A DNA stretch of 47,500 nucleotides from an uncultured SAR116 cluster alpha proteobacterium (GTDB taxonomy: Bacteria > Pseudomonadota > Alphaproteobacteria > Puniceispirillales > Marisalimonadaceae). The position numbers were made by a program, and so were the translations under genes. The stretch spans positions 1 through 47,500 of the forward strand of contig CACOVB010000002.1 in NCBI GenBank assembly GCA_902630555.1. The letters are read 5' to 3'. Under the pieces are notes generated by a model. The model saw only the letters and a list, made by a program, of their open reading frames with translations, searched no databases and was not told the origin of the DNA. This document shows positions 4,123-30,798 of the stretch, one piece after another; within the stretch, counting starts at the first letter, position 1, and every line of letters begins with the position of its first letter.

Positions 4123-5047
4123 GTTTACTTTCCATCTCTGGGACTGCTTTAAATAAATCTTCAGCTAAGCCATAATCAGAGATTGAAAAAATAGGTGCTT
4201 CATCGTCTTTATTAATCCCTATTATAACTTTACTATCCTTCATTCCTGCCAAGTGTTGTATTGCACCTGAGATGCCTACGGCTATGTAAAGGTTTGGAGC
4301 AACAATTTTTCCAGTTTGACCAACCTGCCAGTCATTTGGCACATATCCAGCATCGACTGCAGCCCTACTTGCTCCCATCGCAGCGCCAAGTTTATCAGCC
4401 AATTTTTCTAATATCTGGAAGTTTTCTGCAGATCCTAACCCTCTTCCACCTGAAACAACAATATCAGCTGAAGTTAATTCAGGTCTTTCACTTTTAGTTA
4501 GCTCAGAATTTAAATATTTTGTTTGGTTATTAGTTGTTAAACTGCCTATTTCTTGAATCTTGCCAACGTTTTCATTGCCAATTTCTGCTTCTTCAAATGC
4601 TGTGGATCGAATAGTTATGATGTTTATTTTATTTTTACTCTTACAAGTTGCAATAGCGTTTCCAGCATAAATTGGCCTCTTAAATGTTTGCTTATCAACA
4701 ATTTCAATCACATCTGGAATTATCATAGTATCAAGTAAACCTGCTAGTCTTGGAGCTATATTTTTACCATTAGAAGTATTAGAAAATAAAATATTAGTGT
4801 AGTCTTTAAAATTTTCAGCAATAAAATTTGCTGAATCTTCAGCTAATTGGTTCTTAAATGCATCATTTTCATTAGTAAAAATATTATTAATATTTTTAAT
4901 ATGAATTAATTCATTACAAATATCTCTACAACTATCGCTTAAAACTAATAAATCTACATTTCCAAGTTTAAGAGCAGCTTTTATAGTATTTAATGTTGAT
5001 TTTTCTAATTTATTATTATTATGATCTACTACTACTAATGTTTTCAT
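4115..5047 (-). CDS. etfA: Electron transfer flavoprotein, alpha subunit
   Basis: The FAD-binding subunit of the soluble ETF heterodimer, which takes electrons from acyl-CoA and related dehydrogenases and passes them to ETF:ubiquinone oxidoreductase. The 310-residue product shows the C-terminal FAD domain: VVSGGRGLGSAENF, GAAMGASRAAVDAGYVPN, QVGQTGKIVAPNLYIAVGISG and the end motif DYGLAEDLFKAVPE. The start ATG at 5045-5047 has a good Shine-Dalgarno (AGAGG five bases upstream). It lies 13 bases after etfB in the same operon. The gene end overlaps convergent tlpA by 8 bases. No acyl-CoA dehydrogenase or ETF-QO gene is present in the window. Confidence 0.97.
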   Translation of the reverse strand: MKTLVVVDHNNNKLEKSTLNTIKAALKLGNVDLLVLSDSCRDICNELIHIKNINNIFTNENDAFKNQLAEDSANFIAENFKDYTNILFSNTSNGKNIAPRLAGLLDTMIIPDVIEIVDKQTFKRPIYAGNAIATCKSKNKINIITIRSTAFEEAEIGNENVGKIQEIGSLTTNNQTKYLNSELTKSERPELTSADIVVSGGRGLGSAENFQILEKLADKLGAAMGASRAAVDAGYVPNDWQVGQTGKIVAPNLYIAVGISGAIQHLAGMKDSKVIIGINKDDEAPIFSISDYGLAEDLFKAVPEMESKLN

Positions 5048-5060
5048 ATTTACCTCTATA

Positions 5061-5810
5061 CTAAATTACTTTAGCTTCATTTTTTAATTTTTCAATCATC
5101 TCATCAACAGATTTTACCATAATTCCAGCTTCTCTGGATTTAGGTTCCTCAACTTTTAAGATTTCTAACCTCGGTTCAATGTCGATATTTAAATCTTCAA
5201 CTTTTATTTCATCAATTGGTTTTCTTTTTGCCTTCATAATGTTAGGCAAACTTGCATATCTTGGTTCATTCAACCTCAAGTCAGTTGTTACAACAGCTGG
5301 CAAATTAACTTCAATATTTTCTATACCCCCATCTATTTCTCTACTAACTTTTATTTTTTTATCTTGTATTTCTAATTTACTTGCAAAGGTTGCTTGACCC
5401 CAGTTCAGCATTGCTGAAAGCATTTGTCCAGTGGCATTCATGTCATCATCAATTGCTTGTTTGCCCATAATAACAAGATCAGGTTTAATTTTATTACATA
5501 TAGATGTTAGAATTTTAGCGACTGATAATGGTTCAAGTTTAGATGTGCAATTTACAAAAATACCAGAATCAGCTCCCATGGCTAAAGCGTTTCTAATTGT
5601 TTCTTGTACTTCTGGCAAGCCTATGGATACTGCAATTATTTCACTGGCAACACCTTTTTCTTTTAATCGAAGAGCTTCTTCTACAGCTATTTCATCAAAA
5701 GGGTTCATAGACATTTTTACATTATCTAATTCGACGTCCGTCTCATCTTTTTTAACTCGAACTTTAACGTTGTAGTCTACAACTCTTTTTACTGGAACAA
5801 GTATTTTCAT
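5061..5810 (-). CDS. etfB: Electron transfer flavoprotein, beta subunit
   Basis: The 249-residue beta subunit of ETF, which pairs with EtfA and carries the structural AMP. Typical features are the N-terminal [48 protein letters not shown], the long [15 protein letters not shown] motif and [19 protein letters not shown], the beta-subunit recognition loop region with Leu. The start is well defined by an exceptionally strong Shine-Dalgarno two bases before the ATG (see 5813-5821). It is followed by etfA and preceded by the ATR gene, the order usually seen in Alphaproteobacteria. Confidence 0.97.
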
Positions 5811-5812
5811 AA

Positions 5813-5821
5813 ATCACCTCC
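5813..5821 (-). promoter_or_regulatory. Near-perfect Shine-Dalgarno of etfB
   Basis: Read on the minus strand the bases are GGAGGTGAT, nine contiguous matches to the usual 16S rRNA anti-Shine-Dalgarno tail, ending two bases before the etfB ATG. It is the strongest ribosome binding site I saw in the window. Many other genes here have weak or no visible site, so it probably marks high translation of ETF. Confidence 0.85.
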
Positions 5822-5829
5822 CATTTTAC

Positions 5830-6408
5830 TCATTGATTTCCTCCAGGAACCCATAATATATCCGCTTTTCCATTATCATTTGTTATTCTTGAAACTACAA
5901 ATAAAAAGTCTGATAGTCTATTGATATACATTAATGATTGTTTGTTAATCTTATTTTTTTCAGCAAGTTTTGATATGGATCTTTCGGCTCTTCTTGCTAC
6001 CGTTCTTGCAATATGAAGCCAGCACGACATTTCAGATCCACCAGGTAAAACAAATGAATTTAATGGTTCTAATTTATTATTAAAAGAATCAATCATATCC
6101 TCTAAATTTAAAACCTGAGAATTTTTAATTCTTAATGGTTCAAATTTTGGGTTTTCTTCAAATGGTGTAGATAAGTCGGCGCCTAAATCAAAAAGGTCAT
6201 TTTGTATTTTTTTTAAAATATCAACTAAAAAATTATATTTTTTATCATTATTGATACAGTTAATTGAAAGGCCAATAAATGAATTTAATTCATCAACATC
6301 TCCATATGCTGAGGGTCTTAAATCATATTTTTTTACACGACTACCATCTGACAGACCAGTTGTTCCGTCATCTCCTGTCTTAGTATAAATTTTATTGAGC
6401 TTAACCAT
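5830..6408 (-). CDS. Cob(I)alamin adenosyltransferase, PduO type (ATR)
   Basis: The enzyme transfers the adenosyl group of ATP to cob(I)alamin and so makes adenosylcobalamin, the cofactor of methylmalonyl-CoA mutase and some ribonucleotide reductases. The 192-residue product carries the PduO N-terminal ATP loop YTKTGDDGTTGLSDG, the catalytic helix RTVARRAERSI and the C-terminal NRLSDFLFVVSR. The gene overlaps the small membrane protein upstream by 8 bases (6401-6408), so the two are probably coupled. It lies 19 bases ahead of etfB. A small membrane protein, ATR, etfB, etfA order is common in Alphaproteobacteria. No cobalamin riboswitch is visible. It implies that the cell uses B12, made or imported. 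Confidence 0.93.
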   Translation of the reverse strand: MVKLNKIYTKTGDDGTTGLSDGSRVKKYDLRPSAYGDVDELNSFIGLSINCINNDKKYNFLVDILKKIQNDLFDLGADLSTPFEENPKFEPLRIKNSQVLNLEDMIDSFNNKLEPLNSFVLPGGSEMSCWLHIARTVARRAERSISKLAEKNKINKQSLMYINRLSDFLFVVSRITNDNGKADILWVPGGNQ

Positions 6409-6610
6409 TATAATATCTCTTTAGATATAAAATAAATACAAAAACGATTATTGCAATTGCTTGGAAAATAATTCTATATCTCATTATTAAATTACTTTTA
6501 GATTTGTTATATTCACCACCTCTACCCATTGTAATAACGCCCCACATTAAAATTCCAAAAACTATTAGAAGACAAATTACTAATATTGAATTTGCAAGTA
6601 AATCATTCAT
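6401..6610 (-). CDS. Small two-helix membrane protein, HIG1-like (twin transmembrane protein)
   Basis: A 69-residue protein with two predicted membrane helices (ILVICLLIVFGILMWGVITM and IIFQAIAIIVFVFILYL) joined by a short charged loop, GRGGEYNKSKSNLIMRYR. The loop plus MRYR..FQA resembles the HIG1 domain seen in respiratory supercomplex factors, and proteins of this size usually precede the ATR gene in Alphaproteobacteria. I take ATG at 6608-6610 as the start; a TTG codon directly precedes it. The start overlaps the folD stop by 8 bases, and the stop overlaps the ATR start by 8 bases. By analogy it may act with respiratory complexes in the inner membrane; this is unproven. Confidence 0.8.
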   Translation of the reverse strand: MNDLLANSILVICLLIVFGILMWGVITMGRGGEYNKSKSNLIMRYRIIFQAIAIIVFVFILYLKRYYNG

Positions 6611-7508
6611 CAAAAATAATCTCTTTAAATTCGTGATTATTTGTTAAGAAACTTGCTTTAACTGTGTTATACATTAAACATGCAATTGTCATAGGACCTA
6701 CCCCACCAGGTACAGGTGTAATTAAATTAACCTTATTAATAACATCATTAAAATTTACATCACCTAAAATTTTAATTTTATCATTCATTTTTTTTCTATT
6801 GATCCCCACATCAATTACAGTTGCTTTGTCTTTCACATAATTATTATCTATAAATTCAGTCATTCCGATTGCAGCAATTAAAATATCAGCTTTTAGTGTA
6901 AATTCAGATAAGTTTCTTGTTTTAGAGTGTGTAATTGTAGTTGTGCAGTTTTCTTTAAGTAGCAAAGATTGCATAGGTTTCCCAACAATATTTGATCTAC
7001 CTACTATCGTAGCATTTAATCCATTAAGTGAACCTAATTCTTTTTTTAACATATAAATACACCCAAGAGGGGTACAAGGGATCATTCCGTAATTATTACC
7101 TAGAAATAAGTTGCCTAAATTTATTGGATGGAATCCGTCTACATCTTTTTTTGGATCAATTGACAAAATAACTTTATCTTCAGATATATGCATTGGTAAC
7201 GGAAGTTGAACAAGAATTCCATCAATATCTTTTTGTTGATTTAATTCTTTAATTTTATTTAATAATTCTTTTTCAGATATTGACGAGGGATAAGTAATTT
7301 TCTTTGATATTATTCCAATATATTCTGCAGTTTTAATTTTATTTTTAACATATATTTCACTAGCTGAATTTTCTCCAATTAAAATTACGGCTATAGAAGG
7401 TCTGCGTTTATTAAGTTTCTCAGATTTTAAAACTAATTCTGTGACGCTATCAATCAAGTTTTGAGAATGTTTTATTCCATTAATGATTTTTATATTATCA
7501 CTTATCAA
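6603..7508 (-). CDS. folD: Bifunctional methylenetetrahydrofolate dehydrogenase / methenyltetrahydrofolate cyclohydrolase
   Basis: FolD interconverts 5,10-methylene-, 5,10-methenyl- and 10-formyl-tetrahydrofolate and supplies one-carbon units for purines and formyl-Met. The 301-residue protein shows the catalytic YVKNK motif (Tyr and Lys), GILVQLPLP, DVDGFHP, PCTPLG, the NADP-binding GRSNIVGKP and the C-terminal TPVPGGVGPMT. The start is TTG at 7506-7508: a Shine-Dalgarno (GGAG, eight bases upstream) points to it and no in-frame ATG lies nearby. yggT lies 11 bases upstream; the small membrane protein downstream overlaps by 8 bases. Confidence 0.96.
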   Translation of the reverse strand: MISDNIKIINGIKHSQNLIDSVTELVLKSEKLNKRRPSIAVILIGENSASEIYVKNKIKTAEYIGIISKKITYPSSISEKELLNKIKELNQQKDIDGILVQLPLPMHISEDKVILSIDPKKDVDGFHPINLGNLFLGNNYGMIPCTPLGCIYMLKKELGSLNGLNATIVGRSNIVGKPMQSLLLKENCTTTITHSKTRNLSEFTLKADILIAAIGMTEFIDNNYVKDKATVIDVGINRKKMNDKIKILGDVNFNDVINKVNLITPVPGGVGPMTIACLMYNTVKASFLTNNHEFKEIIFDE

Positions 7509-22626: not shown

Positions 22627-23174
22627 TTTTGATACCATTTTGGCCATAATCTTTTAACAACTTCACTACTGGTGTTAAATGCATGACAAGTCCCAAGAAG
22701 AAGTGGCTTTTCTTGATTTTGGTTTAATTTGGTCTCATTTCGATTTTTTTGTTTTGATTTGTAAGGATATATTGTTTGGAAAGCAGCCGTGGCAGCTGAA
22801 GATAGTAGCTCTGTTATATGAGTACAGCCATTTGTTTCACCTATTAATTTTGTTATTTCTCTCTTCCAACCAGATTTAATTTGAAGCCCAATAATTTTTT
22901 TGAAATTTGAGTTTGCATTTTTACAAATAGAATAAGGACTATTTTCTGTTTTAGCTTCTGCATCTACAACAAACAAATTGTCATCAAGAACTAATTTTAT
23001 TTTCATTTGGTGTATAGGCTCGTCTTTTTTAATAGTACCTCTGTCATGATTTTGAAAATCGTAATTTTTAGTATCTATTAATTCAGCTTCAATTTCAAAA
23101 AGTTCATCATCTCTGATATAGCCTTTAAAACTTATATTTCTGTTATGAAGTAATTCACGTTTTATTTTATTCAT
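22623..23174 (-). CDS. DUF2889 family protein
   Basis: A 183-residue soluble protein if read from ATG 23172-23174. Motifs that recall the DUF2889 family are FKGYIRDDELFEIEAEL, DEPIHQMKIKLVLDD, AEAKTENSPYSIC, GLQIKSGWKREI and GCTHITELL with the conserved Cys-Thr-His. No activity is established for the family. I choose ATG 23174 because its A is shared with the last base of the corC stop (TAATG), a standard coupled arrangement; an upstream in-frame start would extend seven residues into corC. It is the last gene of aroK-aroB-corC-DUF2889. Confidence 0.8.
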   Translation of the reverse strand: MNKIKRELLHNRNISFKGYIRDDELFEIEAELIDTKNYDFQNHDRGTIKKDEPIHQMKIKLVLDDNLFVVDAEAKTENSPYSICKNANSNFKKIIGLQIKSGWKREITKLIGETNGCTHITELLSSAATAAFQTIYPYKSKQKNRNETKLNQNQEKPLLLGTCHAFNTSSEVVKRLWPKWYQN

Positions 23175-24427
23175 TATTTTTCTTGTTCTTTCCATAATCT
23201 CAATTTAGATAAAAAGTTTTTATCTTTTTGTAATATTCTGATTTTAATTCCAAAGAGTCTAAACTCTTGTCCAGGGTTTGGAATTGTTTTTGTTTCAAAA
23301 ACAACCAACCCGGCAATAGTATTGTAATTTTCATCTGGTGAATCCCAAGCTAGGGATCGGTTTAAATCTCTTATTGTAACTGAACCGTCAATTATCAAAG
23401 AGCCATCAGGTTGTGATTTTACACCTTCAACATTTATATCAGTTTCATCATCAATTTCTCCAACAATTTCTTCTAAAATATCTTCTAATGTCACAATTCC
23501 ACGAAAATCACCATATTCATTTACTACAATGGCAAAGTGCTCTTTCCTACCTCTGAAAATTTCTAATTGATCTAATATTGGTGTCGTTTCTGGGGCAAAG
23601 TAAGGATCGATTAAAATATTTTTAAGATCAAATGATTTTGTATCTTTAAAATTGTTTCTTTGTAAAAATCTGAAAAGTTCTTTTGCATGCAATATACCAA
23701 TGATATTATCTTGTGTTCCTGAAAAAACAGGTATTCTAGTATAGGGACTTTCTCCAACAATTTTATAAATATTTGCTGCAGATAAGTTAATATCAATCAT
23801 TGTCACTACCCCTCTATGTGTCATGACTTCTTCAATATTTACATCTTCAATGTCAATCATACTTGACATTATTTTTCCTCTTTCGATAGCCCTGGTTTCT
23901 TTTCCAGCATGCAATCTTATCATTCCTTTTAATTCTTCTGTCTTAGCTTCTTCACTAGCATAATCTGGTCCAGTTATTAATTTTGAAAATTTTTCTGTTA
24001 AGAAAGTTAAAGGAGTAAAAATTATAATAATTAAATTAATTAATGGCGAAACTATAAGTGCAATTTCATCTGCATTTTTAAGAGCATAAGTCTTTGGTAT
24101 CATCTCAGCAAAAATGACAAGGATTATAGTTAATATAATTGTAATAATAATTAAAGGTATGTCTGTAAAATATTGTATTGCAAAACTGGTCGCATATACT
24201 GAAGCAATTATATTTACAAAATTATTTCCTATAAGTATTGTTCCAATCATTTTATCTCGATTTTTTAAAATCTTTTCGATTAATTTTGCTTTTTTATTTC
24301 CTTTGTTTACAAGCTCATTAATACGAGCTTCAGATACAGCTGTTAAAGCAGTTTCAGAGCTTGAAAAAAATGCAGAACATACAATTAAAAAAACAATAAT
24401 TAGTATAAAAATACTTAATTCATTCAT
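23174..24427 (-). CDS. CorC/HlyC-family (CNNM) membrane transporter with CBS pair
   Basis: A 417-residue integral membrane protein. An N-terminal CNNM (DUF21) domain has about four helices and the motif FFSSSETALTAVSEARINEL. Two CBS domains follow (about residues 200-320; YTRIPVFSGTQDNIIGILHAKEL and GDFRGIVTLEDILEEIVGEI), then a C-terminal transporter-associated CorC_HlyC domain. Family members are linked to magnesium (and cobalt) efflux or homeostasis; older annotations as hemolysin are misleading. It overlaps the end of aroB by 8 bases and shares TAATG with the DUF2889 gene. The aroK-aroB-corC order is common in Alphaproteobacteria. Confidence 0.92.
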   Translation of the reverse strand: MNELSIFILIIVFLIVCSAFFSSSETALTAVSEARINELVNKGNKKAKLIEKILKNRDKMIGTILIGNNFVNIIASVYATSFAIQYFTDIPLIIITIILTIILVIFAEMIPKTYALKNADEIALIVSPLINLIIIIFTPLTFLTEKFSKLITGPDYASEEAKTEELKGMIRLHAGKETRAIERGKIMSSMIDIEDVNIEEVMTHRGVVTMIDINLSAANIYKIVGESPYTRIPVFSGTQDNIIGILHAKELFRFLQRNNFKDTKSFDLKNILIDPYFAPETTPILDQLEIFRGRKEHFAIVVNEYGDFRGIVTLEDILEEIVGEIDDETDINVEGVKSQPDGSLIIDGSVTIRDLNRSLAWDSPDENYNTIAGLVVFETKTIPNPGQEFRLFGIKIRILQKDKNFLSKLRLWKEQEK

Positions 24428-25559
24428 TGATCAACTCATTTAAAAATTTTTTTAATGTAATTTCATCTACATCATTTTTAATTAATGCACTTCCTATTCC
24501 ATTAGATAAAATAAATGTAATTTTTCTGTTTTTAACTTTTTTATCTAAATAAAATTTATCTAAAAGTTTTTTTGACGATATTTTTATACCCTTAATGTCC
24601 TTTAATTTTGTTGGAAGATTAAATTTTGATATTAATTCTATACATCTCTTCGCTTCTTTTTTTGAGCATAAATTCATATGGGTACTTAGTTTAAATGCAC
24701 AGGCCATTCCAATTGCAACGGCCTCACCATGAATTAATTTTTTACTATCATAATTTATTAAATTTTCAAATGCATGTGCAAAAGTATGACCGAAATTTAA
24801 TATGGCTCTAATACCTTGTTCTTTTTCATCAATAGATACTATCTTTGCTTTAATTTGACATGATTGAAAAATAATAGTTTCGATATATGGACTTTTTAGT
24901 TTTTTAACACTCTCAATATTTTTTTCTAAATAACTAAAGAACTTTTTATCATATATAAAAGAATATTTAATAACTTCTGCAAAACCTGCTAAAAGCTCTC
25001 TTTCTGGAAGTGTTTTTAAAAAATTTATATCAATTAAAACTCCTTTTGGTTGATAAAAAGTTCCAACAAGGTTTTTTCCATGTTTTGTATTTATTCCAGT
25101 TTTTCCTCCTACAGAACTATCTACTTGAGAAAGTAGAGTTGTTGGAATATGTATACATTTAACTCCCCTTAATACAATTGAACTAGCAAAACCAACTAAA
25201 TCTCCTGTTACACCACCACCTATTGAAATAATAATAGAATCTCTATTAATTTTATGAGACAAAATAAAATTTAATAAAATTGAGAGTTTGTCAAAATTTT
25301 TGAACTTATCTTTTGATTTAATTTTGAAAAAAAAATTTTCTGACCCTAGTTTAGTTGAAACTTTTTCAAAGTCTTTAATCAAATTTTCATGTAATTTTAA
25401 TTTATAAAAAAACTCATCATAAATTACATATATTTTTTTTCCTTTTAAAGTTTTGGAAAAATTCTTTTCTAATGTTTGAATGAAATTATTTCCTATGAAT
25501 ATTGAGTATTTAAATGATTTATTTTCATTAATAACTGATATTTTTTTTAAGACAGTCAT
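24420..25559 (-). CDS. aroB: 3-dehydroquinate synthase
   Basis: Second enzyme of the shikimate pathway; converts DAHP to 3-dehydroquinate with NAD and a divalent metal. The 379-residue product shows the NAD-binding IISIGGGVTGDLVGFASS, IPTTLLSQVDSSVGGKTGIN, LPERELLAGFAEVIKY and the metal-ligand motif NFGHTFAHAFE, plus HGEAVAIGM. The start ATG overlaps the aroK stop (ATGA), indicating coupled translation. Confidence 0.97.
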   Translation of the reverse strand: MTVLKKISVINENKSFKYSIFIGNNFIQTLEKNFSKTLKGKKIYVIYDEFFYKLKLHENLIKDFEKVSTKLGSENFFFKIKSKDKFKNFDKLSILLNFILSHKINRDSIIISIGGGVTGDLVGFASSIVLRGVKCIHIPTTLLSQVDSSVGGKTGINTKHGKNLVGTFYQPKGVLIDINFLKTLPERELLAGFAEVIKYSFIYDKKFFSYLEKNIESVKKLKSPYIETIIFQSCQIKAKIVSIDEKEQGIRAILNFGHTFAHAFENLINYDSKKLIHGEAVAIGMACAFKLSTHMNLCSKKEAKRCIELISKFNLPTKLKDIKGIKISSKKLLDKFYLDKKVKNRKITFILSNGIGSALIKNDVDEITLKKFLNELINE

Positions 25560-26092
25560 AATATACCTTTTATTATTTTATTACATAAATCGTTAACAGA
25601 AAGATTATCTGTATTTATTTTTAAATGTGATTTTTGATAATTTTTAATTCTTTTATTTAATAACATTTCAATATTGGTCTCAACATTACCTTTTATCATA
25701 GGCCTATTAAAAGCTTTGCCAACCCTTTTACTTAAAACTTTAATGTCACTATTTAACCAAATTACCTTAGAATTATTTAGAAGAAATTCTCTAGTTTTTT
25801 TACTTTCAAATCCACCTCCACCTAAACTAATTATAGCCTTAACATTTTGTCTTAAGTATTCACTTACTTTAAGAAAAATAACCTTTTCTTCTATTAAACG
25901 AAAATATTCCTCTCCAAACTTCTCAAAAATCTCACTTATTTTTAAATTTTCTTCTAATTCAATAATTGAGTCTATATCTAAAAAACTTATTCCTAATTTT
26001 TTAGCTAATACACTTCCACAACTAGTTTTACCAGAACCCATCATTCCTACTAAAGTAATTAACTTAATATTATTGTTTGTCATGCTATTCAT
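25556..26092 (-). CDS. aroK: Shikimate kinase
   Basis: A 178-residue P-loop kinase that phosphorylates shikimate. It has Walker A GMMGSGKTS, the shikimate-binding DIDSIIE, FGEEYFRLIEEKV, the glycine motif ISLGGGGFES and the lid Arg in FNRPMI. It is the first gene of the minus-strand set aroK-aroB-corC-DUF2889. The start is ATG 26092 or the Met four codons on (TNNNIKLITLVG follows); neither has a clear Shine-Dalgarno. A 102-base AT-rich gap separates it from the divergent microprotein gene and probably holds promoters for both directions. Confidence 0.95.
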   Translation of the reverse strand: MNSMTNNNIKLITLVGMMGSGKTSCGSVLAKKLGISFLDIDSIIELEENLKISEIFEKFGEEYFRLIEEKVIFLKVSEYLRQNVKAIISLGGGGFESKKTREFLLNNSKVIWLNSDIKVLSKRVGKAFNRPMIKGNVETNIEMLLNKRIKNYQKSHLKINTDNLSVNDLCNKIIKGIL

Positions 26093-26194
26093 ATATTGTA
26101 ACTATAACGTATATAAGTGATTAAAATTCATTTATTTTTTAAAAAATGTAAATAAAGACAAAAACTTGCCACAATCTTTTAATATCACACATTA

Positions 26195-26323
26195 ATGAAA
26201 ATCATAATTTCAATAATTATTTTATTTATTATAGGTTTTTTTACATATATTTATACATGGGATATACCTGTGCCAGAAAAAGAAATAAAAAAAGAAATAA
26301 ATATTTTAGATCTTAAGAAATAA
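26195..26323 (+). CDS. Small single-pass membrane protein (42 residues), uncharacterised
   Basis: A complete frame from ATG 26195 to TAA 26321-26323. A hydrophobic helix (IIISIIILFIIGFFTYIYTW) is followed by a short polar tail DIPVPEKEIKKEINILDLKK. Short proteins with a W-D-(I/L)-P-x-P motif after one helix occur between aroK and xerD in other Alphaproteobacteria as far as I recall, which supports a real gene. It begins a plus-strand set and ends four bases before the next start. No Shine-Dalgarno is visible. Function unknown; an inner-membrane location with the tail outside is plausible. Confidence 0.7.
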   Translation: MKIIISIIILFIIGFFTYIYTWDIPVPEKEIKKEINILDLKK

Positions 26324-26327
26324 ATTT

Positions 26328-28061
26328 ATGAAATTATTATTTATTTTATTCTTAGCTTTATTTTCAAACTCTGCTTTTACTCAGACACTTAAAAACTCTG
26401 ACGGTAACTTTATTAATTTAACAAATGAAATAAAAGGTGACCAAAAAACATCAAATAACGTAAAAAATGATAAAAAAATTGACAAACAAAGTGATAATGA
26501 AACTAAAAAAATAGAATCTGTAATGATTGGTAAGCTTGAAATACCTTCCTTGGGTTCTATTGGTGTAGAAACAAGTTTAAATAAAAAAAAGGGTTTAAAT
26601 TTATGGAGTAATTTTACAGCTAATAATGCAATAAAATATTTAAATCAATTACCAAACAAAATATCTAGTAGATCCTACCAAAGATTTTTAAATGAAGTAT
26701 ATGCCAGTACATCTGAACCACCTAAAGGAAATACTGATGAAATTTCTAAATTTTTAGAGACTAGATTAGTTAAATTAGCTTTAAATGGTCAAACAGATTA
26801 TTTAATTAAAATAATTTCTCAATTGCCTGATAGTCCAAAATGGGAGAGGTGGAAGAAATGGTATATTATTCATCATTTTTTAGTTAAAGACGATACTAAT
26901 GCGTGTCTTAAAATATCCAATACAATTAATATTTATGATAGTATTTTTTGGAAAAAAGCTAATCTATTATGTCTTATTCTTCAAAGGAATTTATCTGAAG
27001 CAAATTTCATATATGATGTTATGCGATCTCAAAATTTATTAGATGAAACATTTGAAACACTAATTGATAAAATTTTAAACGAAAAACAATTAGAAAATTT
27101 AAATTTTAACGATAAATCAGTCTCACCACTCAATTTGATTTTGTTAGATATAACTAAGTATCCAATCAGTTTTGAAATGATAAAAGATTTTGGGTTTGAA
27201 TATAAGTTGCAATTATCTAACCTAATATATTTGAAGCCTGAAGCAAGAGCATTGCTTATTGATCAAATAACAACTGTTAAAGATATAAATAGTGACTCGA
27301 TAATTAAGATATACCAAGACATTAAACTTGAAAATTCAAATCATGATGAGATTCTCAAAATCTTAAATTTAAATCCTAATGGATTGATAAGAGCAAAGGT
27401 TTGGCAAAATTCAATGAAAATCAAAGATAGTTCGGAAAAAGCTGAATTTATACTAAAAAGTCTTTTAATTGAGAACAAACATAATAATTCTAAAATAGCC
27501 ACAGAGCTATACATTCCATCTCTGATTTCTTTAAAAACCAATTCATTGTCTCAATCTCAAACTCAGGATATCAACTACATATATAATCTCAAGAATCCAG
27601 AAAAATTTGTTGACGCACCTTTTTCACAAATATTATTAGATCCTAAAAATAAAGTGTGGGATGAACAGTTTATCTCACGGCACAACGCTTGGAATTTTGT
27701 TAATTTCCTTAGCTATTTAGGGATGAAGTCACCTGACATTGCGTGGGAAAATAATCTTAATTTTACCTCAAAAGATATAAAAAAAATAAATGATAAATTT
27801 TCTTTAAATATTTCTTATGAAGATTTTATTTTAAGTAGAGGAATTTCTAATAATATTAAAGAAAAAAATTATTTAAAAGCAATTTTATTAATTGGTAAAT
27901 TAATAGGTGAAAATGAACTAAAATTTTTAAATTTAACAACTTTTCAAAAAATTGATATGTATTTAACTGATTTAGATTTTTTAACTTTACGTGATGAATT
28001 TAGAAAAGAAGTTTTATATGAAAAGTTTTTCTATTCTAAAAATCTTTACAATGAATTTTGA
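26328..28061 (+). CDS. Uncharacterised exported protein, 577 residues
   Basis: I do not recognise a family. The N-terminus [20 protein letters not shown] is a good signal peptide with likely cleavage after AFT. Residues 20-70 are Lys/Asn/Asp-rich and probably disordered. The remaining about 500 residues look largely alpha-helical, with alternating helical stretches and many Leu, Ile, Asn and Lys, possibly a helical-repeat solenoid. Few cysteines and no enzyme motif stand out. It starts four bases after the microprotein and its 3' end overlaps xerD by 11 bases, so it is probably part of one transcript with xerD and accA. A large exported protein here seems to be a feature of other Alphaproteobacteria as well, but I cannot name it. 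Confidence 0.85.
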
Positions 28062-28992
28062 TAAAAATAAAATTAATGAAGTAATAGAGAACTTTGTTTC
28101 TACAAAAGTTTTAGATAAAGGAATAACAAGTAATACAATTATAGCTTACAAAAAAGATTTAAATCTGTTTACTAATTGGTGTCTAAATAATAAAATTAGT
28201 TTGATTGAAGTTCAAAAAAAAGACATAAATCTTTACATCCATTTTTTAAAAGAACAAAATTTAAATAGTTCCTCTATTAATAGAAAACTATCTGTTATTA
28301 AAAGTTTTTATGATTATTTGAATCAAATAAATTTAATAAATTTCAATGAACTAAAAACAATAGTAACCCAGAAATTAGAAAAGAATTTACCAAAACTTTT
28401 ATCGGAAAAAGAGATTTTATTTCTTATAGATAAATCAAAAGAAATGTATGTTAAAAATCCTATTAAAAATATATCATATTTACGAATTCAGGTAATTTTA
28501 GAGATTTTATATTCAACTGGTCTTCGCATTAGTGAATTGTTAAATATTAAAATTTACCAAGTGGCAAACATAAAAGACAAATTGTATATAAACGGTAAGG
28601 GTAATAAACAGAGATTAGTAATATTTAATAAAAATGCTTTAGATTTACTAAAAAATTGGATTAGCATAATGATTAAAAATAATAAAAATAAAAACTCTTA
28701 TCTTTTTGAAAATATTCACAACATAAAAGTTATTTCACGACAACAAATATATAAAGACCTCAAAAAGTTAGCACTTAAAACAAATACTGACGTAGAAAAA
28801 CTTTCCCCTCATTCGATAAGACATTCTTTCGCTAGTCACATGTTAAACAGAGGTGCTGATCTAAGAAGTATTCAAAAACTTTTGGGGCATTCTGACATAT
28901 CGACTACAGAAATTTATACACAAGTTAGACAAAATAGACTAAAAGGTTTAGTTAATAACATACATCCACTAAGCAATATATTAAAGAGATAG
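28051..28992 (+). CDS. xerD: Tyrosine recombinase XerD
   Basis: A 313-residue site-specific recombinase of the kind that, with XerC, resolves chromosome dimers at dif. The N-terminal SAM-like domain ([34 protein letters not shown]) is followed by the catalytic domain with Arg in [13 protein letters not shown], Lys in GKGNKQR, His-x-x-Arg in [13 protein letters not shown], His in [12 protein letters not shown] and the nucleophile Tyr in EIYTQV. I choose ATG 28051; the frame is open upstream to 27991 but that would overlap the exported protein by 71 bases. It could be XerC; the position ahead of accA favours XerD. Nothing suggests a mobile element. Confidence 0.88.
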
Positions 28993-29004
28993 AGGGTAAA
29001 ATAA

Positions 29005-29949
29005 ATGATTAAACATTTTTTAACATTTGAAAAAAATATAGCTGACCTTGAAGGTAAAATAGAAGATTTAAAGCATATTTCATCAAACTCTGATTTAAAT
29101 ATTGCTGAAGAAATTGGTAAATTACAAAATAAAGTAGCAGATGAATTAACGGATACTTATTCTAATTTAAATCCTTGGCAAAAAGTTCAAGTAGCAAGAC
29201 ATCCTGACAGACCACAGTTTCAAGATGTTATTGAGCACTTAATTGATGGTTATTTGAGTTTAGGAGGAGATCGATTATTTGGTAATGATAATGCTCTTAC
29301 AGGGGGGGTAGGCTATTTTAGAGGAAAAAAAGTATTATTGGTTGGTATTGATAAAGGTAAGAATACTAACGATAGAATTTTAAGAAACTTTGGCATGGCT
29401 AGACCCGAAGGCTATAGGAAAGCTATTAGATTAATGGAATTAGCTAATAGATTTAATTTACCTATACTTTCTTTTATTGATACAGCAGGTGCATATCCAG
29501 GTAAAGGAGCTGAGGAAAGGGGACAAGCTCAAGCTATTGCATCATGTGTTGATGCATGTTTAAAGTTAAGTACACCAATGATTTCTACAATTCTAGGTGA
29601 AGGTGGCTCTGGAGGAGCTATTGCATTAACTTCTGGAAATGTAATTCTAATGTTTGAACATTCAATTTTTTCGGTAATTTCTCCTGAAGGTTGTGCGTCT
29701 ATTTTGTGGAGAGATGCAAGTAAAGCTAACGAGGCTGCAAAAGCTTTAAAATTAACTGCTAATGATATGAAAAAACTTAACATTATTGATGAAATTATTC
29801 AAGAGCCTTTAGGAGGGGCTCATAGAGATTATAAAAAATCTCTAACACTTTTAGGAGATTCTATAGAGTTACAACTTAATGAATTACTTAAACTTGATCC
29901 ACAAGAATTGAAAATAATAAAACAAAATAAATATCTAAAAATCACATAG
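29005..29949 (+). CDS. accA: Acetyl-CoA carboxylase, carboxyltransferase alpha subunit
   Basis: The 314-residue alpha subunit of the carboxyltransferase that, with AccD, passes carboxyl from biotin-AccB to acetyl-CoA to give malonyl-CoA for fatty acid synthesis. Conserved segments are RHPDRPQF, GDRLFGNDNALTGGVGYF, GMARPEGYRKAIRLMELA, DTAGAYPGKGAEERGQ and the oxyanion-hole GEGGSGGAIAL. The ATG has a clear Shine-Dalgarno (GAGGG, 28993-28997 region) and lies 12 bases after xerD. The next gene is convergent, 15 bases away. Confidence 0.97.
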   Translation: MIKHFLTFEKNIADLEGKIEDLKHISSNSDLNIAEEIGKLQNKVADELTDTYSNLNPWQKVQVARHPDRPQFQDVIEHLIDGYLSLGGDRLFGNDNALTGGVGYFRGKKVLLVGIDKGKNTNDRILRNFGMARPEGYRKAIRLMELANRFNLPILSFIDTAGAYPGKGAEERGQAQAIASCVDACLKLSTPMISTILGEGGSGGAIALTSGNVILMFEHSIFSVISPEGCASILWRDASKANEAAKALKLTANDMKKLNIIDEIIQEPLGGAHRDYKKSLTLLGDSIELQLNELLKLDPQELKIIKQNKYLKIT

Positions 29950-29964
29950 TTTATATCAAATCAT

Positions 29965-30798
29965 TTAGTCTATTTTATATTTCTTGTTTACAAATAGTGA
30001 AGGTATTTTTGATCTAGCTATTTCTATCTGACGTTTGTCAATATTAGTTATTATAATATTCTTTTCCGTTTTTGCATCTTTAAGTATTTTTCCCCATGGT
30101 GAAACTATTAAAGAGTGACCATAAGATTTTCTTTTATTAAAATAATGACCATATTGGGCAGGAGCAACTATATAGCATCCTGTTTCAATTGCACGTGCTT
30201 TTAATAGACTATGCCAGTGATCTTTCCCAGTAATGTGCATAAAAACTGATGGAACTGTAATTAAGTCTGCTCCGTTTAGTGCAAGATCTCTAAATAAATG
30301 TGGAAACCTTAGATCATAGCAAATGGTCATACCTATTTTGTAGTATTTTCCATTAACTTTTAATTTAGCGATTTTTGCACATTGACCACTTTCATAAGTT
30401 TTTGACTCTTGATAGGATTGTTGTTTTGATATTTTAACATCATACATATGAATTTTATCATATTTGCAAATCACTTTACCTTTTCTATTAATTAAAAAAG
30501 ATCTATTGTATAACTTTTTTGTTAACATTTTGTATTCAAGGGTTTGTAAAGATCCAATTAAAATATTTACATCTAAATTTTTTGCAATTTCTTTTATCAT
30601 TTTAAGAGAAAAACTATTTCTTTCAAAGCTTGCATTCATCATGGTATCAGATTTGTTAATATTTAAAAAAGTTGCACATTCAGGAAGTGTTATAAGATCA
30701 ACTTTTTTTTTGGCTGCACTATTAATTAAAGGTATTAATTTTTTTAAAGTTTTTTTTTCCTCTTCATAAGATTTGTATTGTATACAAGCTACTCTCAT
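29965..30798 (-). CDS. Carbon-nitrogen hydrolase, probable deaminated-glutathione amidase (Nit1-like)
   Basis: A 277-residue nitrilase-superfamily amidase with the Glu-Lys-Cys triad: LPECATF (Glu near 41), KYDKIHMYDV (Lys) and MTICYDLRFPHLFRDLA (Cys near 159). The pattern ESKTYESGQ...GMTICYDLRFP and GDRALETGCY-type (here KARAIETGCYIVAPAQYGHY) fits the Nit1/YafV-related branch that hydrolyses deaminated glutathione, a metabolite-repair reaction. In other Alphaproteobacteria this gene sits with grxC, DUF1178 and ubiG; here it is about 5 kb from the last two. Exact substrate is inferred. Confidence 0.85.
   Translation of the reverse strand: MRVACIQYKSYEEEKKTLKKLIPLINSAAKKKVDLITLPECATFLNINKSDTMMNASFERNSFSLKMIKEIAKNLDVNILIGSLQTLEYKMLTKKLYNRSFLINRKGKVICKYDKIHMYDVKISKQQSYQESKTYESGQCAKIAKLKVNGKYYKIGMTICYDLRFPHLFRDLALNGADLITVPSVFMHITGKDHWHSLLKARAIETGCYIVAPAQYGHYFNKRKSYGHSLIVSPWGKILKDAKTEKNIIITNIDKRQIEIARSKIPSLFVNKKYKID

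Follow-up and report, generated by a model that had tools for sequence, protein, structure and literature searches.

The window analysed here, 47,500 nucleotides from an uncultured alphaproteobacterium of the SAR116 cluster (contig C2 of a 0.98-Mb assembly that is 57% complete), encodes a membrane microprotein, a putatively exported protein of 577 residues that we call EXP, and a Xer tyrosine recombinase best called XerD, in that order on the forward strand. We find that the microprotein and EXP belong to two families whose genes are kept side by side, ahead of xerD, across the Alphaproteobacteria. We tentatively propose, at somewhat less than even odds, that EXP is a periplasmic adaptor of the tetratricopeptide repeat (TPR)-like kind and that the conserved tail of the microprotein is its docking peptide at the membrane. 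The anatomy of EXP, its conservation across the class and its close linkage to xerD are solid. A first-pass annotation of the same DNA had described an unrecognised exported helical protein, located behind a membrane microprotein and linked to xerD, and this description is supported; the coordinates it gave for EXP, the four bases that separate EXP from the microprotein stop and the 11-base overlap with xerD were all confirmed. The central features are as follows.

26195..26323, forward strand: microprotein of 42 residues, predicted bitopic membrane protein (open reading frame; class-wide homologues upstream of EXP/xerD; charge balance)
26328..28061, forward strand: EXP, predicted exported protein of 577 residues from a class-wide unnamed family (open reading frame; profile searches)
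26328..26384, forward strand: EXP signal-peptide-like N-terminus, approximately residues 1–19 (sequence; cleavage site placed by eye)
26385..26582, forward strand: EXP disordered charged linker, approximately residues 20–85 (model confidence; alignment)
26583..27266, forward strand: EXP predicted TPR-like helical-hairpin domain, residues 86–313 (AlphaFold2)
26904..26906, forward strand: codon of Cys193, conserved without exception in the 90 aligned members and the 23 outside the alignment
26970..26972, forward strand: codon of Cys215, invariant in the same members
27267..28058, forward strand: EXP C-terminal helical half, residues 314–577 (low-confidence model)
28051..28992, forward strand: Xer tyrosine recombinase, best called XerD (family models; PDB match)

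EXP has a signal-peptide-like start followed by a disordered charged linker and then by helices to the end of the protein. A hydrophobic N-terminal stretch is present in 74 of the 90 members of a class-wide alignment (A4), the other 89 of which are 11–80% identical to the EXP of the window. In the AlphaFold2 model a helix at residues 2–17 is followed by disorder, the predicted local distance difference test score (pLDDT) is below 50 for residues 11–93, and the linker differs in length between relatives. The model of the whole protein, based on eight close sequences, is poor (mean pLDDT 57.7); residues 86–313 modelled alone give a pLDDT of 85.1 and a predicted template modelling score of 0.81. 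The modelled helices, with boundaries read from the secondary-structure list of the model, are 136–152/156–163, 170–185/189–199, 206–218/222–234 and 240–251, so that pairs start at approximately 136, 170, 206 and 240 with a TPR-like period of 34–36 residues. We are confident in predicting that residues 86–313 form a TPR-like helical-hairpin domain. The disordered segment with helices elsewhere that had been read from the sequence agrees with the pLDDT values, and the earlier suggestion of a helical-repeat fold finds support in the domain model.

Only two columns of the 90-row alignment are invariant, Cys193 and Cys215, and neither cysteine is missing from any of the 23 EXPs that were omitted from it as near-duplicates or as cut, split or over-long frames. 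The spacing between them is 22 residues in 67 of the 90 EXPs, and in 75 of the 90 there is no further cysteine past residue 45 of the called frame. The model places Cys193 on the second helix of a hairpin and Cys215 on the helix that opens the following one. An invariant cysteine pair with rarely any other cysteine suggests a disulfide, which would join neighbouring repeats of a periplasmic protein. DsbB was found in 50 of 61 relatives, and in 23 of the 24 that are near complete. The EXP of the window has no cysteine before residue 193 and so no lipobox, and lipobox-like strings were found in 10 of the 90 EXPs, some of them in N-termini that were probably called too long. The EXP of locus L056 (genome G043, 4541–6535) carries, close to the N-terminus, lipobox-like strings that end in Cys, and may be a lipoprotein.

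Comparison with known structures points to a class of fold and, weakly, to a functional lead, that of a periplasmic adaptor. For the EXP domain Foldseek ranked NlpI first with a non-significant E-value of 0.13; of the 14 leading rows 10 are NlpI chains, for the most part complexed with Prc or MepS (E 0.13–0.39). VIA-align of the domain gave Z-scores of up to 8.4, chiefly with proteins of TPR-like or other helical-repeat architecture, while structural alignment of the whole of EXP gave Z-scores of up to 8.7 (VPS35). LbcA–CtpA was third for the full model, with a Z-score of 8.4 and a root-mean-square deviation (rmsd) of 22.5 Å over 253 aligned residues. No single chain is prominent among the matches listed, and the absence of other families from these lists proves nothing.

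The 55 aligned microproteins have a single hydrophobic segment followed by approximately 20–25 residues. Their mean charge is +1.5/−0.1 ahead of the segment and +3.3/−3.2 behind it, a balance that fits a topology with the N-terminus inside and the C-terminus outside. The tail has the class consensus W-D-I-P-A-P-x3-V-E-K-V-I-P-N-D-R-F, in which the motif columns hold W in 45 of the 55 sequences, D in 36, I in 41, P in 52, A in 41 and P in 54, and the positions after the motif are most often V/I, E, K, V, I/L, P, N/D, D/E, R and F/L. The tail in the window reads T-W-D-I-P-V-P-E-K…K-E-I. Because a conserved tail at the membrane is encoded together with a putative periplasmic solenoid, we suggest that the tail may be a docking peptide for that solenoid.

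A single-sequence search of 61 genomes from the order found EXP in 51, including 23 of the 24 near-complete ones. A profile built from 29 members of the order extended this to 165 of 289 genomes of the class, and a class profile of 90 sequences to 192 of the 289 (159 of the 234 near-complete ones), or approximately two thirds. The 289 genomes also supplied part of the sequences in profiles A4 and A5, whose matches to those members are therefore automatic, and many of the sampled assemblies are incomplete. In a sample of 249 genomes from the phylum there were 33 EXP matches, 32 of which fell in the class (the genome of the window included); the only match in another class was weak and partial (E 2.5e-4). 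For the microprotein, a first profile of seven sequences from the order matched 102 of the 289 class genomes, and a class profile matched 175 at E 0.01, a threshold that admits chance hits, and 151 at 1e-5. This leaves 114 class genomes with no detected microprotein. Hits in other classes were found in 4 of 71 genomes, all at E 2.9e-4 or weaker, and as far as sampled both families are alphaproteobacterial. Both genes were detected in 154 of the 289 genomes, approximately half, EXP only in 38, the microprotein only in 21, and neither in 76.

Neither protein is held in the curated family libraries used. Both EXP and the microprotein gave no match above noise in Pfam, NCBIfam, PHROGs or PADLOC; for EXP, Pfam was run on the window protein, all 29 rows of alignment A1 and 15 others, NCBIfam on the window protein and 10 others, while the PHROGs and PADLOC searches took in two members of each family. 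Hits for the microprotein were only scattered, the best being E 0.0018 in NCBIfam (from one of the 55 members) and E 0.013 in Pfam. Among PDB sequences the best E-value with the EXP order profile was 0.63. The EXP class profile matched a RAF1 peptide (6smh_I, E 0.00023, profile positions 301–423), followed by matches of E 0.23 and weaker, with designed TPRs from 0.65, all of which we regard as generic helical similarity. The first-pass annotation could name no family, and these searches, with no convincing PDB sequence among them, bear that out. A phage or defence origin was rejected on the lack of PHROG or PADLOC matches for the four scanned proteins, and one distant EXP member (locus L160) had no plasmid match. 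A full-text literature search returned no paper recognisable as describing either gene. Two other proteins, CC0100 and CC3010, were considered, the former presumably a heparinase-like gene that lies elsewhere. Both are included in lists of alphaproteobacterial signature proteins (PMC1182365, PMC2241609), in which the passages available give CC0100 a length of 576 amino acids and CC3010 a length of 216, too short to be EXP.

To describe gene order we used 80 class loci that were hand-picked and not random, mostly one per family, with 62 chosen by an EXP match and 18 by a microprotein or weak EXP match. EXP was found in 74 of them and the microprotein in 71. The two genes are adjacent and on the same strand in 65 of the 65 loci with both, and xerD lies downstream of EXP on the same strand in 69 of the 69 loci where both were found, 66 of them with a spacing of −60 to +150 bases. 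Conservation of the order microprotein–EXP–xerD across the class, which the first-pass annotation had raised, is thus upheld. In a set of 110 EXP-bearing loci, which includes near-duplicates, accA shares the strand of EXP in every one of the 85 where it was found, and 91 of 100 have aroK or aroB in divergent orientation; the order microprotein–EXP–xerD, divergent from aroK–aroB, recurs across the class. It is also present in genomes of 5–6.5 Mb (L130 in G181, 6.0 Mb; L133 in G061, 5.4 Mb; L165 in G153, 5.7 Mb; L202 in G111, 6.5 Mb), and therefore streamlining is not its cause; the earlier idea of simply a streamlined operon falls on this point.

Five EXP loci have no Xer gene in the stretch read. 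One of these, L144, is an EXP running off its contig, and the true exceptions are L147, L184, L187 and L193. At the last three the microprotein still precedes EXP, which marks the microprotein–EXP pair itself as the unit, and the tie to xerD would seem to be one of co-expression. The pair at L187 (genome G065, 5383–7066) stands in a 12-kb stretch without aro, xer or acc genes. A further locus, L198 (genome G271, 1.5 Mb, 6023–6220), has a firm microprotein match (E 1.8e-16) beside cnnM and neither EXP nor xerD in the stretch, and is the best case for a role of the microprotein that is independent of EXP.

EXP is a real coding unit under purifying selection, with dN/dS values of 0.16–0.23 across five pairs compared within the genus. 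The same pairs give 0.08–0.13 for xerD and 0.06–0.16 for accA, and the microprotein, which has only 42 codons, gives 0.18–0.30 in four pairs and 0.90 in one. EXP distances track those of xerD, accA and aroB (r 0.79, 0.79 and 0.74) over the 64 loci that hold all four genes, with L168, L172 and L178 dropped, and shuffles gave a correlation with xerD or accA of at most 0.13. As the distances of EXP follow those of the cluster genes, it has been inherited vertically with the cluster.

In the window the gaps between the microprotein, EXP, xerD and accA are 4, −11 and 12 bases, the ATG of xerD at 28051 lying 11 bases inside the 3′ end of EXP. The same overlap is found in four of seven genus relatives (L031, L033, L034 and L035); it is 4 bases in L037 and changed in L058, and in L036 the EXP stop is 1 base ahead of the same xerD ATG. 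From the short gaps and from the lack of any terminator-like site in 25900–30000 we infer that the four genes share one transcript. Promoter-like matches in the region 26093..26194 are not above chance (19 found against 29.1 expected). The Xer gene scores 294.9 bits with the general tyrosine recombinase model NF001399 (cut-off 279) and matches PF00589 and PF02899. It falls below the curated cut-offs of both the XerD and XerC models, with the XerD equivalog model the better scoring of the two (272.2 bits, cut-off 329.6), and its best PDB match is the E. coli XerD structure 1a0p (E 9.2e-44). The neighbouring features are listed here.

29005..29949, forward strand: accA (family match; conserved cluster gene)
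26093..26194, no strand assigned: intergenic stretch between aroK and the microprotein, presumed divergent promoter region (coordinates)
25556..26092, reverse strand: presumably aroK, divergent conserved neighbour
24420..25559, reverse strand: presumably aroB, divergent conserved neighbour
23174..24427, reverse strand: presumably a CNNM/CBS (tlyC/corC-like) membrane protein, conserved neighbour

We propose that the microprotein and EXP may constitute an ancient alphaproteobacterial envelope module. EXP would be exported by Sec, its signal peptide removed, and would adopt in the periplasm a TPR-like alpha-solenoid fold that the Cys193–Cys215 disulfide holds together, acting there as an adaptor or scaffold. 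The microprotein would be anchored in the inner membrane by one helix, with its conserved proline-rich tail extending into the periplasm, where it most likely serves to dock either EXP or a partner common to both at the membrane. Since the three genes follow each other closely or overlap, EXP and the microprotein would be made in step with XerD, probably by translational coupling, which would set dosage and timing and would not require contact with XerD.

Several results weigh against this proposal. Foldseek gave no match below E 0.001 for either the domain or the whole EXP model, no TPR model of Pfam matches EXPs (29 members at E 0.5, 10 at 0.1 and 5 at 0.05), and the helical-repeat Z-scores of 8.4–8.7 may reflect only a common arrangement. 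DsbB was not found in the incomplete genome of the window itself. EXP is not detectable in 97 of the 289 genomes, including complete class genomes of 4–8 Mb, so in some lineages it is dispensable or has diverged beyond detection. Nor do the two proteins always occur together, as 38 genomes carry EXP without a detected microprotein and 15 have a firm microprotein match (E ≤ 1e-5) with EXP undetected. Four or more of these EXP-less genomes have the microprotein directly before xerD; at L191, L194, L200 and L201 it is directly upstream of xerD with EXP missing from the locus, and the class profile found no EXP match anywhere in those genomes. The microprotein can therefore persist without EXP.

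These same genomes with one gene and not the other (38 with EXP only, 21 with the microprotein only) would be expected if EXP had an envelope role unrelated to the microprotein and the two were mere co-transcribed neighbours. We consider this unlikely, given that 154 genomes have both genes, at a co-occurrence far above chance (the Fisher value ignores relatedness), that the two are adjacent wherever a locus has both, and that they stay together at three loci without xerD. A different use of the gene order, in line with the link between envelope and chromosome segregation that the first-pass annotation had raised as possible, would be for EXP and the microprotein to act at the division site with FtsK and XerD, so that the resolution of chromosome dimers is coupled to closure of the envelope or to the release of vesicles. 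The class-wide linkage to xerD, on the same strand at 69 of 69 loci, speaks for this, as does the finding of dif-enriched DNA and FtsK in outer-membrane vesicles of Dinoroseobacter shibae (PMC7901474), a paper whose available passages do not mention the EXP or microprotein genes. Against it, xerD occurs without EXP at L191, L194, L200 and L201, EXP occurs without xerD in the stretch at L147, L184, L187 and L193, and accA (85 of 85) and aroK/aroB (91 of 100) are linked to EXP about as firmly. We know of no role of accA or aroK/aroB in segregation. We give action at the division site a small probability, and an even slighter one to its fuller form, in which the bitopic microprotein would be the membrane receptor of a disulfide-locked solenoid that serves the last division step through its coupling to xerD.

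Three more specific possibilities were weighed. EXP could be an adaptor of the NlpI/LbcA type that presents endopeptidases or other clients to a Prc/CtpA protease, as the predominance of NlpI among the leading Foldseek rows and the third place of LbcA–CtpA would have it; yet the E-values are non-significant, the rmsd to NlpI exceeds 10 Å, there is no sequence relation, and NlpI and LbcA are lipoproteins of the outer membrane, whereas only 10 of 90 EXPs contain lipobox-like strings; we rate this as improbable. A periplasmic scaffold of the flagellar motor, similar to PflA or MotE, would suit the predicted TPR-like fold and the Foldseek match to a Campylobacter jejuni scaffold chain (9hmf_K, E 0.28), but six near-complete (90–99%) EXP-bearing relatives (G021, G039, G043, G046, G054 and G059) have no FliM match, making such a role very improbable. 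The first-pass annotation had suggested an LppC fold, which would make EXP an outer-membrane activator of a penicillin-binding protein, and LpoA too contains a TPR-like part. Such a role we think scarcely credible: PF04348 does not match EXP, 15 of 25 relatives carry an LppC-like gene elsewhere (8 of the 25 above the curated cut-off), and hhalign of EXP profiles with 14 LppC-like genes gave a probability of 0.1%. A link to the elongasome was rejected, as EXP and MreC show no mutual dependence. An MreC match is absent in 25 genomes, and among the 20 of these listed 8 carry EXP; given totals of 264 genomes with MreC and 192 with EXP, MreC occurs without EXP in no fewer than 80.

An undescribed pair of envelope proteins that has been kept together is a target in the search for missing cell-envelope functions. 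The invariant cysteines, the docking-like tail and the small number of genes make the function directly testable in laboratory strains of Caulobacter or Rhodobacter, provided that these have the pair, and if EXP is a TPR-like adaptor it may be the alphaproteobacterial counterpart of the periplasmic TPR adaptors of the Gammaproteobacteria.

Variation elsewhere in the cluster was also recorded. A gene of approximately 325–350 amino acids lies between xerD and accA in a number of class members and is absent from the window; the three that were scanned (L158, 8188–9240; L182, 2834–3811; L203, 8734–9711) belong to the HpcH/HpaI aldolase/citrate-lyase family (PF03328), and in the stretch of L203 no accA was found. 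At L163, L165, L168, L176, L178 and L208 the aroB open reading frame is 508–1269 amino acids long with no separate aroK shown, suggesting aroK–aroB fusions or merged frames. Frames split into two are seen for EXP in L171 (G267), xerD in L045 (G060) and accA in L053 (G041), and are frameshifts or assembly errors in draft genomes.

Among the closest known systems is NlpI, the periplasmic TPR lipoprotein that serves as adaptor of Prc and MepS and that is exported and all-helical with hairpin repeats, as is predicted for EXP. The two differ in that EXP is approximately twice as long, contains an extended disordered linker and two invariant cysteines and in most cases lacks a lipobox, and the structural match (E 0.13, rmsd above 10 Å) comes with no sequence relation. 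LbcA, the TPR partner of CtpA in Pseudomonas, is likewise a periplasmic helical-repeat protein and an outer-membrane lipoprotein; it reaches a Z-score of 8.4 to the full EXP model, a value often reached by helical repeats, at an rmsd of 22.5 Å and again with no sequence relation. LppC/LpoA (PF04348) is exported and has a helical N-terminal part, but profile comparison with EXP finds no similarity and LppC is a separate gene in relatives. With the TPR superfamily as a whole there is no Pfam match among the members scanned, while the EXP model shares with it the basic unit of helix-turn-helix repeats, here 34–36 residues in length.

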